Shown one piece after another: positions 19,024-30,131 of a DNA stretch of 64,000 bases (the stretch's first letter is position 1; every line of letters begins with the position of its first letter). The notes beneath the pieces were generated by a model. That model was given only the letters and a program-made list of their open reading frames with translations. It had not been told where the DNA came from and ran no database searches. The stretch lies in the NCBI RefSeq assembly GCF_001306145.1, contig NZ_LGKO01000002.1, positions 1,178,001 to 1,242,000 of the forward strand. Reading direction: 5' to 3'. The DNA is from Thermanaerothrix daxensis (GTDB lineage: Bacteria; Chloroflexota; Anaerolineae; Anaerolineales; Anaerolineaceae). The position numbers and the translations under genes were made by a program.

Positions 19024-19063
19024 AACCGAGGGTGCGAAACACTTCGCACCCTCGGTTTTGTTT
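19024..19063. terminator. Rho-independent terminator between clpC and glnA
   Basis: A 15-bp inverted repeat (AACCGAGGGTGCGAA / TTCGCACCCTCGGTT) with loop ACAC is followed by TTGTTT on the plus strand. The complement ends in TTGATTTT, so it can serve both convergent genes. Confidence 0.9.
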
Positions 19064-19070
19064 CGAAATA

Positions 19071-20411
19071 TCAAGCGGTTTCCAGAAAACGCTCTAACTC
19101 CCAATCGGTGACCTGGATGCGGAATTCTTCCCATTCCGCCAGTTTAGCGCGGCGGTAAGCCTGGTAGAGGATTGGATCAAAGGCGCCCTTGATCACCTCG
19201 TCTTTCTCCAATTCCTGGAGGGCCTCATAAAGTGAGCCGGGCAGTTCTTTAACCCCTACTTCATCGCGTTCTTCAGGAGTGAGTTCATAAACGTTCACAT
19301 TGTTGAGGGGGGCTGGGCAAGGAATTTTGTGATCAATCCCATCCAGGCCTGCCACGAGCATTGCGGTGAAAGCCAGGTAGGGGTTAGCCGAGGGGTCCGG
19401 GAAGCGCAATTCCGCGCGTGTGGCTTTATGCTGTCCAGGGGTGTAGCGAGGGATGCGAATGAGAGCCGAGCGATTGATCTGTGCCCAGCAGATGTAAACC
19501 GGGGCCTCATAACCTGGGACCAGACGCTTGTAAGAGTTAACCGTTGGAGCGACAATGGCTGCCAACGCACGAGCATGGGCTAATTGGCCAGCGATGAAAC
19601 CATAGGCAATTGGAGAGAGATGAAATTCGTCTTGAGAATCAAAAAACAGATTGTTCCCTTGCAAATCAAACAGGGATTGGTGGCAGTGCATCCCCGAGCC
19701 ATTGATTCCAAATACGGGTTTGGGCATGAAGGAGGCAATCAGTCCATGCTGTGCAGCAATTGCCTTCACGGTGTACTTGAGGGTGAGGACATTATCCGCA
19801 GTACGTAGGGCGTCTGCGAAGCGAAAGTCAATTTCATGCTGCCCAACAGCAACCTCGTGGTGGCCCACTTCAACCTCTAACCCCATGCTTTTCAGCGCGG
19901 CCATCAATTCTGTACGCACTCGAACTGCTTCATCGTCTGAAGAAAAATCAAAATAACCCACTACATCATGAGGTACAGGGCGAATCGTCTCGGTTCCATT
20001 GCGGCGAAAGAGGAAAAACTCAGGTTCTGGACCTACGTTGAACACCCATCCTCGCTGTTCGCGGAGTTTGGCCAGGGTACGCTTGAGGGTACCGCGCGGA
20101 TCACCCGGAAAAGGTGTGCCGTCGGGTTGGTAGATATCACAGAAAAGGCGTGCACGCCGCATATCAGGTGGAGACCAGGGCAGAACCGCATAGGTGTCGG
20201 GATCAATATGGAGGTGCATGTCGCTTTCCTGAATGCGGGCAAACCCCTCAACGGAGGACCCATCGAACCAGACGCCGTTTTCAAGTGCGCCTTCCAATTG
20301 GCCCACAGGCATGTCTACGCTTTTTACTGTTCCCACTACATCCACAAACTGGAGGGAAACGAACCGCACATTATCTTCTCTCACTCTGGCAAGAACGTCT
20401 TTAGTATTCAT
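19071..20411 (-). CDS. glnA: Glutamine synthetase, type I
   Basis: ATP-dependent ligation of ammonia to glutamate, cytosolic dodecamer. The 446-residue protein shows the beta-grasp domain with WFDGSSVEGF, then the catalytic domain: GPEPEFFLF, the metal site VGHHEVAVGQHEIDF, the ATP site FGINGSGMHCHQSL, NSYKRLVPGYEAPVYICWA and the RAELRFPDPSANPYLAF block. It lacks the proteobacterial insertion and tyrosine adenylylation site, so it is a GSI-alpha type regulated by feedback, not by AMP transfer. The ATG at 20411 has AGGAGG 9 nt upstream; the frame can be extended to 20501 but that stretch is leader RNA. A long structured leader with a glmS-type ribozyme precedes it (20580-20747), under a strong promoter at 20795-20823. 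Confidence 0.96.
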   Translation of the reverse strand: MNTKDVLARVREDNVRFVSLQFVDVVGTVKSVDMPVGQLEGALENGVWFDGSSVEGFARIQESDMHLHIDPDTYAVLPWSPPDMRRARLFCDIYQPDGTPFPGDPRGTLKRTLAKLREQRGWVFNVGPEPEFFLFRRNGTETIRPVPHDVVGYFDFSSDDEAVRVRTELMAALKSMGLEVEVGHHEVAVGQHEIDFRFADALRTADNVLTLKYTVKAIAAQHGLIASFMPKPVFGINGSGMHCHQSLFDLQGNNLFFDSQDEFHLSPIAYGFIAGQLAHARALAAIVAPTVNSYKRLVPGYEAPVYICWAQINRSALIRIPRYTPGQHKATRAELRFPDPSANPYLAFTAMLVAGLDGIDHKIPCPAPLNNVNVYELTPEERDEVGVKELPGSLYEALQELEKDEVIKGAFDPILYQAYRRAKLAEWEEFRIQVTDWELERFLETA

Positions 20412-20579
20412 AATACACATCCTCCTTGGCTTAAAAAGTTTATGGACATGCCAGGCATGCCCATTTTGGCGATGAAATGGGTGCCCCTTCATAAGGATCA
20501 AGCCGGCAAGGATTTCATCTACGCCGGACTACCACCGGGTGGGCTTTGGCCGGTTGTTGCCAACCGCTTTTGAACCCAA

Positions 20580-20747
20580 ACCCTTGTTTCGAAGGGAGAA
20601 AGAAGCCTGTGGTCGGGCTTCAGAGGCATCCGCTGATCGTTCCGATTTTCCCCTGATTACAACCCCCTCTCAGGGTTAGCACTCTCCTCGCGGAGAGGAA
20701 CCTCCACCTCGTCACCTTTCAGCCTTGGGCTGAAAGGCTCAGCCGCT
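20580..20747 (-). ncRNA. glmS-type (glucosamine-6-phosphate) ribozyme in the glnA leader
   Basis: Read on the minus strand, the leader contains the core of the glmS self-cleaving ribozyme in correct order. The scissile context is ATAGCGGC (cleavage expected between 20747 and 20746). P1 is a 10-bp hairpin CCTTTCAGCC / GGCTGAAAGG (20737-20715). TGACGAGG (20714-20707) runs directly into TGGAGGTT (20706-20699). GCGGATGCCTC (20633-20623) matches the B. subtilis core word, and a P3 hairpin GAAGCC / GGCTTC (20621-20602) and a P4-like hairpin CCCTT / AAGGG (20596-20581) follow. GCUGA near the cleavage site (20743-20739) pairs with UCAGC (20636-20632), where known examples pair GCC with GGC; this looks like compensatory change. 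GAGG also pairs with CCUC. About 50 nt forming two extra hairpins, one capped by a GCGA tetraloop (20697-20682), is inserted in the core. The downstream gene is glnA, not glmS. Confidence 0.78.
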
Positions 20748-20794
20748 ATTTCTCCGGTATTCAATTGGCAGGTGCTTTCTAAAATAATGGCGCA

Positions 20795-20823
20795 ATCTTA
20801 CAGAGATTTTGATAGGTTGTCAA
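20795..20823 (-). promoter_or_regulatory. Promoter of the glnA leader transcript
   Basis: Consensus -35 TTGACA (complement of 20818-20823) and -10 TAAGAT (20795-20800) are separated by exactly 17 nt. Transcription would begin near 20788, giving a leader of about 375 nt before the glnA start codon. The 3' half of that leader (20580-20412) holds further small hairpins: GGTTG/CAACC with a GCAA loop, CCAC/GTGG, and CCCATTT/AAATGGG. Confidence 0.75.
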
Positions 20824-29740: not shown

Positions 29741-29745
29741 GAGTG

Positions 29746-30131
29746 TGGAGATGGCGGGAATCGAACCCGCGTCCGAAAGATTCGACCCTCGAACATCTAC
29801 GAGCGTAGTTGGTCTTTGATTTTCGCGCTACTCCCGACGACCAACAGAACAGGAGCCACGCTAGCTGCTTGGTCTTTCGCACAGCCCGCAGCGTGCTGTG
29901 CGGCAGCCTGGCTTTCTCACGCCCGCTCTACCACCGGCCAGGCAGCGGGGTAGGCGAACGTGGCCTCACACTCGGGAGGCCAGGGCGCTCATCCCTTTTG
30001 GCTTACGCAGCCAGCGGGAGAGCAGCGTAGTTTGTGCGGTTGGCACTTATTTTTTGCGCTGATTTTACGAGGTCGGCGCCTCTCGGCTCGCCGTTCGGGA
30101 TCAGCCTCTTCCGTCGAAGCCGTTCATCCCC
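29746..30131 (-). ncRNA. ssrA: tmRNA (transfer-messenger RNA)
   Basis: 386-nt one-piece tmRNA. The 5' end GGGGATGAACGGCTTCGACGG is the conserved tmRNA start in Chloroflexota-like bacteria; its first seven bases pair with CATCTCC at the 3' end (one G-U). The T-arm GCGGG-TTCGATT-CCCGC is intact. The tag reading frame (complement of 30044-30003) encodes ANRTNYAALPLAA followed by TAA, with the LAA end expected for ClpXP/ClpA-type recognition. The 3' CCA is not encoded. Pseudoknot-like repeats fill 29880-30000. Confidence 0.96.

Follow-up and report, generated by a model that had tools for sequence, protein, structure and literature searches.

The leader of glnA in Thermanaerothrix daxensis is, judged by its conserved core and predicted fold, a member of the glmS ribozyme family in which the P2.2 bulge has moved and for which the Rfam score is met only by relatives; its cleavage is inferred. 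The glmS ribozyme is a textbook case of one RNA for one gene and is known almost only from the gene for glucosamine-6-phosphate synthase. The copy described here is not in a glmS mRNA but before glnA; a place in a glmS mRNA is a customary and not a structural feature of the family. A conserved variant of the ribozyme, with a probable terminator, before glnA and sometimes before glutamate synthase (GOGAT) genes suggests that many Anaerolineae adjust nitrogen assimilation by means of an amino sugar. New here are a GGAAGGG box pairing with J3/4 in most copies and, 5' of the start codon in many, a terminator-like hairpin. The features are listed below in coordinates of the window, the whole stretch of 64,000 nucleotides that was analysed.

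19024 to 19057, both strands: terminator-like hairpin 3' of glnA
19071 to 20411, minus: glnA, type I glutamine synthetase, 446 aa, start codon at 20411
20442 to 20464, minus: terminator-like hairpin, followed by AAACUUUUUA, directly 5' of the glnA start
20485 to 20490, minus: box GAAGGG, partner of J3/4 (GGAAGGG in most relatives)
20503 to 20527, minus: small hairpin CCGGC/GCCGG, flanked by P3.1 and the box (by eye)
20521 to 20760, minus: glmS-family ribozyme, glnA subtype, whole match to the subtype model R1 (200.7 bits, model positions 1-227)
20591 to 20596, minus: J3/4 strand CCCUUC of a long-range helix, named P5 here
20602 to 20621, minus: P3 hairpin; its loop CCAC (20612-20609) and GUGG (20535-20532) form the pseudoknot P3.1
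20651 to 20675, minus: inserted hairpin P2c, CCCUGA/UCAGGG
20682 to 20697, minus: inserted hairpin P2b with a GCGA tetraloop; two-sided changes in 6/6 pairs
20709 to 20711, minus: P2.1 5' strand C28 G29 A30, pairing with U43 C44 G45 at 20645-20643
20715 to 20737, minus: P1 hairpin, 10 bp (20737-20728 with 20724-20715)
20740 to 20745, minus: P2.2 5' strand C2 G3 [G4 bulge] C5 U6 G7, pairing with 20635-20631 (C52 A53 G54 C55 G56)
20746 to 20747, minus: predicted cleavage site A(-1)/G1, from the RF00234 alignment and canonical numbering
20795 to 20823, minus: putative sigma-70 promoter (TTGACA, 17 nt, TAAGAT), consensus match only, 10/12 letters

From the putative promoter, a consensus match only, the predicted cleavage site would lie about 40 nt into the transcript; the region held three promoter-like sites, against 1.3 in shuffles. 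A conserved box resembling CAAYTGAATA (window 20767-20758, minus strand) was seen by eye about 10 nt 5' of the cleavage site in many glnA leaders. Elsewhere in the window a tmRNA gene was found (29743-30131, minus strand, 189.5 bits).

Family membership of the glnA leader

The core words were present on the minus strand in the order that had been claimed for them: AGCGGC (20747-20742), the P1 hairpin (20737-20715), UGACGAGG joined to UGGAGGUU, GCGGAUGCCUC and the P3 hairpin (20621-20602). The AG cleavage dinucleotide and the words C2 G3, G7, A27-G32, A42-C44, C52 and G54-G57 are all there; the part of them that belonged to our search pattern is biased in the set of 94 copies described below and is invariant or nearly so in the alignment A1. 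The downstream gene was correctly named as glutamine synthetase, and is a true type I glnA by TIGR00653 (548.5 bits, cut-off 429).

At the gathering score the window gave no match to RF00234. With permissive filters the model aligned to 20758-20527 (minus strand) over all of its 167 positions and scored 29.2 bits (gathering score 37), with an E-value of 4.8e-5 for 521 nt. The covariance-model hit on which the original prediction had been staked was thus obtained in part: the window copy remains below 37 bits, and 8 of the 28 glnA leaders of relatives exceed the cut-off, the best at 53.1 bits. The Rfam threshold thus hides the window copy. A covariance model of the subtype (R1) was built from A1, which comprised 26 sequences (25 glnA leaders and one orphan, the window's own copy among them). 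The window match is not due to chance, given the linkage to glnA in 28 of 82 loci, eight of these over the cut-off, and the 200.7 bits scored with the relatives' model.

Conservation was assessed in 94 aligned copies (A2), from which five incomplete loci, six duplicates and other known copies (e.g. L071, L088, the f12 loci of the class-wide search and all of L273-L311) were left out. Outside the search pattern, A42 U43 C44 and C52 A53 G54 C55 G56 G57 were identical in all 94. G45 (84/94), A58 (92/94) and U59 (85/94) were not invariant, position 26 varied, and AAAATCG was present in 91 of the 94 copies. A-1 was found in 92/94 and G1 in 94/94, partly selected by the search pattern; G1-G7 and A27-G32 were nearly invariant, but had been selected by the pattern in 69 of the 94. 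In A1, whose 26 copies were found with RF00234 and not with the pattern, G1, C2, G3 and A27-G32 were invariant and A-1 nearly so.

In the paired regions of A2, 94.7% of cells pair, two-sided changes occur in 38 of 52 pairs, and the covariation score was 0.484, against 0.187 in shuffled and at most 0.121 in slid controls. P3.1, which is absent from the model, had two-sided changes in 5/6 pairs, and P4, which is in the model used to align the rows, in 12/12. The pairs of the double pseudoknot P2.1 and P2.2 were possible in 96-100% of cells; being nearly invariant within the subtype, they are not tested by covariation. Profile, conserved core and covariation together place the leader in the family.

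In the original prediction a GCC/GGC pairing of known examples had given way to GCUGA/UCAGC by what looked like compensatory change. The pairs are indeed kept, but the region is better read as a P2.2 in which the bulge has shifted: C2-G56, G3-C55, [G4 bulged], C5-G54, U6-A53 and G7-C52, with A53 in place of G53. By the numbering of PMC7125110, the P2.1 strands 28-30 and 43-45 make up the active site and contribute to the cofactor pocket, and the glmS consensus has a P2.2 bulge at position 6 that is at least 97% conserved. The glnA type departs from this and bulges position 4. According to the same paper, the P2.2 bulge matters, and bulges moved inward to the middle of P2.2 are inferred to cleave better than a mismatched P2.2 (PMC7125110). 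The position-4 bulge agrees with these rescue data and was counted as variation within P2.2, not as a reason for exclusion from the family.

Gene linkage, distribution and phylogeny

RF00234 matched two places in the genome of T. daxensis, one before glnA and one before glmS (L002); glmS thus has the copy of its own that had been considered for it. Across 61 genomes of the same order, this one included, 54 had a match with an E-value no higher than 1, but only 17 had one over the cut-off, which accordingly hides most copies in the order. All but one of the 83 matches were classified (G042:C8:281-323, which adjoins the match of L020, was left out). The 82 loci preceded glnA in 28 cases, glmS in 49 and neither in five, and the conservation in relatives that had been demanded of the glnA-leader element was thereby met. 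Among the five, L081 and L082 were taken as chance matches (RF00234 only 15.0 and 13.7 bits, no core, no R1 match), L067 and L080 are orphans, and L071 heads glutamate synthase genes. With R1 the 28 glnA leaders scored 161-235 bits, the two orphans 205 and 144, the glmS-linked copies 58-114 and L071 101.7. Beyond what had been predicted, the subtype is spread over the Anaerolineales, also heads glutamate synthase operons, and carries an attached box and terminator-like hairpin.

The linkage was also approached from the gene side. A search of these 61 genomes with the window GlnA gave 79 matches, which were compared with the R1 matches. Of the 42 close GlnA genes (at least 430 bits, a threshold chosen after the list was seen), 30 had a ribozyme of the subtype on their own strand no more than 3 kb upstream, within 400 nt in 29 and through an operon in one (G047). 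No ribozyme was found upstream of the 37 distant glutamine synthetase paralogues in these genomes. The comparison took up 35 of 89 R1 places; of the other 54, those seen to share a contig with a glutamine synthetase gene were at least 38 kb away from it. Of the 12 close GlnA genes without a ribozyme, two stand at contig ends (G009, G034), one belongs to a probable split operon (G060, where EamA-glnA and ribozyme-ada stand on separate contigs, the latter at a contig end), and nine seem to be truly without.

A scan of named genomes with the subtype pattern returned at least 119 stretches, and 113 of those listed were R1 matches (74 + 39). The remaining six were rejected as chance matches to the pattern (L213, L226, L254, L257 and L267 without an R1 match, L210 with 21 bits), and all five records of another bacterial group are among them. 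The first recognised gene behind the 113 listed copies was glnA itself in 71 (43 + 28), ada with glnA further on in 18 (12 + 6), ada with no glnA in view in five (4 + 1), EamA in two (with glnA behind it in one, L214) and glutamate synthase in eight (5 + 3; about 1 kb away in L195). The ada/EamA operons are thus headed by 25 copies, with glnA in view in 19. Nothing was recognised behind nine (8 + 1): six stretches end no more than 127 nt behind the ribozyme, two are orphans, and one is L304. glmS was found behind none of the 113 matches listed. Copies without a nitrogen gene are the orphans L221 and L269, L348 with its MOSC-like gene, and L304, which has no recognised gene within 922 nt. The subtype precedes glnA in the named strains Bellilinea caldifistulae GOMI-1, Levilinea saccharolytica KIBI-1, Longilinea arvoryzae KOME-1 and Ornatilinea apprima P3M-1.

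Several operons depart from the simple arrangement. In the longer stretches of family f12 the order ribozyme, Ada-like gene, EamA transporter, glnA was found in 11/11 loci (reading frames by eye; G047 by alignment), and in L173 the Ada-like and EamA genes were confirmed by Pfam. The pair that stands between ribozyme and glnA in L173-L183, an Ada-like gene (AraC helix-turn-helix and O6-methylguanine methyltransferase) and the transporter, looks as if inserted behind the leader. In L284 (downstream of 4291, minus strand) a single ribozyme is followed by glnA and glutamate synthase in the same direction. The operon of L190 (G057) was identified by Pfam as that of a glutamate synthase (Glu_synthase, 1.1e-89; GXGXG; GATase domains), and its ribozyme has extra hairpins inserted between the core words AUCG and AUCAGCGG. 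L186 (ribozyme, FAD oxidase and a GlnA-like gene about 5 kb on) was rejected as a glnA operon, the distance being too great. The orphan glnA-type ribozymes L067/L221 (Longilinea arvoryzae) and L080/L269 have no recognised gene behind them on the same strand, and lack the J3/4 motif and the box. In G043 a third ribozyme of the genome (L348:2419-2646, minus strand), with box and, by eye, a terminator-like hairpin, stands before a small gene that by eye resembles one for a MOSC-domain protein; the whole module of ribozyme, box and hairpin seems to have been copied there.

A tree was calculated from 86 ribozymes chosen by the analyst; its bootstrap had not settled. One clade of 34 (support 99/98) united 22 glnA, 6 ada-operon and 6 GOGAT copies, with no glmS copy. 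The GOGAT copies are not grouped but scattered within the clade (5 changes), which leaves room for more than one change of target. L170, which stands before glnA in another order, has ordinary core words and falls within a supported group (98/94) whose other members are glmS copies, which points to a second, separate recruitment to glnA.

Class-wide, R1 matched 235 of 396 genomes, and 90 of the best matches listed, picked by score, were classified; phylum-wide, at a stricter threshold, it matched 121 of 400. R1 matched 77 genomes outside the class; in the 25 of these that were classified, the ribozyme precedes glmS in 24 and a DegT aminotransferase in one. A DegT-type aminotransferase stands behind the ribozymes L107, L115, L130 and L312, and in L185 is followed by a probable GFO/IDH-type oxidoreductase (by eye); these copies perhaps place an amino-sugar pathway under the control of glucosamine-6-phosphate (GlcN6P). 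In L123, L109 and L110 a gene resembling those for GTP-binding proteins (by eye) lies between ribozyme and glmS.

The box, the J3/4 helix and the terminator-like hairpin

Counts of the downstream elements used 42 of the 43 direct glnA leaders in the first part of the named-genome set; L249, in which glnA is 545 nt away, was left out, and the 28 direct leaders of the second part lie outside these counts. The GGAAGGG box was exact in 27/42 glnA leaders and in 0/49 glmS leaders. Terminator-like hairpins were found in 25/42 and 6/49, respectively; strictly behind the ribozyme there were 23 in the 42 glnA leaders, against a mean of 1.55 and a maximum of 4 in 20 rounds of shuffling. The window hairpin (20464-20442) is G+C-rich, is followed by a U-tract, and lies between putative promoter and gene, directly 5' of the Shine-Dalgarno sequence; this region had five terminator-like sites, against 2.4 when shuffled. 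The hairpin stem varies among copies and an apical GCCC recurs (by eye). Terminator-like hairpins were likewise present in the glutamate synthase leaders L195 and L220. Some ribozyme-bearing glnA leaders have neither box nor terminator, so the putative attenuator is not universal. Box and terminator were also considered as a general feature of glnA leaders, an idea rejected on nine ribozyme-less glnA-like genes (L349-L353 and L355-L358; in four, identity to the window GlnA is just 50-55%), none of which shows core words or a terminator-like hairpin.

Within the ribozyme, the J3/4 sequence CCCUUCC is complementary to the box. In a first test the longest box-J3/4 helix came to 6.71 in the 94 copies, against 6.02 when partners were re-dealt, and in 47 less redundant copies to 6.85 against 6.46 (2 of 1000 re-deals as high). 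In a second test the box was placed by consensus alone. Of 93 rows, one other having been dropped for an N, 72 had a box that agreed in at least 6 of its 8 letters and 71 of these had J3/4 letters; in the 71, 95.8% of cells were paired, against 94.2% when re-dealt (sd 0.26; 0/2000 as high). For 55 less redundant copies the values were 96.4% and 94.7% (0/2000). Conservation of both strands keeps the signal small. Compensating changes were found in L012, L015 and L264, and the window has one of its own (G-U). When words were matched more loosely, 70 of the 94 copies had both partners, 18 neither and 6 one alone. Helix and hairpin are thus established by comparison; box and hairpin are probably a transcription attenuator, an activity inferred from sequence. 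Two possible partners present themselves for the box, J3/4 and the hairpin's GCCC loop. As the J3/4-box helix crosses P3.1 it may exclude that pseudoknot, and coupling of the two parts through it, inferred only, is possible on these two grounds.

Proposed mechanism and comparison with known systems

GlmS converts glutamine and fructose-6-phosphate into GlcN6P, which is the cofactor of the glmS ribozyme; cleavage leads to decay of the mRNA, in Bacillus via RNase J1. Since GlmS consumes glutamine to make GlcN6P, the level of the latter should rise when glutamine is plentiful. The best explanation of our results is a lineage of the glmS ribozyme dedicated to the glutamine synthetase-glutamate synthase (GS-GOGAT) pathway, in which GlcN6P triggers cleavage and lowers glnA mRNA, with the attenuator as a second gate; we give it a probability of about three in four. 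GlcN6P, the inferred ligand, would bind a preformed pocket, and with it as cofactor the RNA would cleave at A(-1)/G1. The downstream mRNA, with its 5'-OH, would then be degraded, and less glutamine synthetase, in some relatives less glutamate synthase, would be made. The attenuator would act as an additional gate before the message is complete. The genome has an RNase J gene (567.9 bits, cut-off 400); this says little for the inferred decay, as the profile matches 13 of 14 control genomes, nine of them over the cut-off. Inhibition of glutamine synthetase by GlcN6P is in print for the enterobacterial enzyme, of which GlcN6P is a feedback inhibitor (PMC6316151).

A more ambitious form of this explanation would make an ancient lineage of the glmS ribozyme a nitrogen-status sensor, with GlcN6P as a proxy for glutamine acting on GS-GOGAT. 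Ribozyme and attenuator would be one device, the J3/4-box helix would couple folding or ligand binding to termination, and one metabolite would set both read-through and decay. We regard this form as tentative and would not expect all of it to hold.

Two other explanations keep the RNA functional. The GS-GOGAT lineage might have kept the fold and changed its ligand, sensing and cleaving with another small amine or nitrogen-status metabolite. This would suit its separate clade, its own position of the P2.2 bulge, the variable position 26 and the association with genes other than glmS; we consider it unlikely, although not to be disregarded, in view of pocket positions that lie outside the search pattern and read as the glmS consensus in nearly all copies, and of L170, which precedes glnA and yet falls among glmS copies with ordinary core words. 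Quite unlikely is an RNA whose cleavage in the cell has been lost or needs no ligand, and whose role is that of a folded aptamer or scaffold, setting the downstream terminator by way of the J3/4-box helix. Box and terminator-like hairpin do go with the subtype, are missing from most glmS leaders, and such a hairpin is missing from the nine ribozyme-less glnA-like genes. A scaffold would need only pocket and fold, however, and the bases of the cleavage site and the catalytic strands are conserved all the same (A-1 92/94, G1 94/94, and likewise in A1); several leaders, moreover, have the ribozyme without box and terminator. Chance similarity or a functionless relic, for which the window score below the Rfam cut-off and the orphans L221 and L269 without J3/4 motif and box could be cited, is already contradicted by the conserved linkage, the covariation and the core over 94 sequences, and can hardly be entertained.

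Should the dedicated GS-GOGAT lineage be real, GlcN6P would be a signal for nitrogen assimilation, and a ribozyme with a metabolite cofactor would have a second physiological role. The subtype would supply natural variants for structure-function work, namely a shifted P2.2 bulge, an added helix and an attached attenuator, and the named strains that carry it before glnA make the idea testable now. A literature search returned no report of a glmS ribozyme before glnA, with the key 2011 survey by McCown outside its reach, and no paper on a glmS riboswitch in Anaerolineae. The accessible parts of PMC3766115 and PMC2258182, and of papers on E. coli strain engineering, RNA sensors and Plasmodium, report no pairing of a glmS ribozyme with glnA.

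Cyanobacterial glutamine riboswitches (glnA RNA; PMC6316151) offer a likeness in kind, RNA control of the supply of glutamine synthetase. They differ in sensing glutamine and, in the part of PMC6316151 that is accessible, are not described as cleaving; their Rfam family is absent from the Rfam matches of the window. The glmS-leader ribozymes of the same Anaerolineales genomes, among them L002, by eye have the same fold with inserted hairpins. Many of them differ in reading GCGCAUGG, so that by eye position 5 of P2.2 is the one bulged, and as a group they differ from the 28 glnA leaders in R1 score (58-114 against 161-235 bits) and in lacking GGAAGGG (0/49). With the glmS ribozyme at large (RF00234) the window subtype shares the double-pseudoknot core of P2, P2.1, P2.2 and the P3/P3.1 pseudoknot, the P4 periphery, the AGCG cleavage site and the words GACGAGG, AUCG and GCGGAUGCC. 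Structural variants with extra stems in the core have reportedly been described from Deinococcus-Thermus by McCown and colleagues in 2011, and all but two of the 463 ribozymes in their survey are said to lie in glmS mRNAs. The window subtype departs from RF00234 in targeting glnA or GOGAT, in its P2.2 bulge at position 4, in two hairpins inserted between P2 and P2.1 (likewise seen by eye in many of the order's glmS copies), and in the extra J3/4-box helix and downstream terminator-like hairpin.
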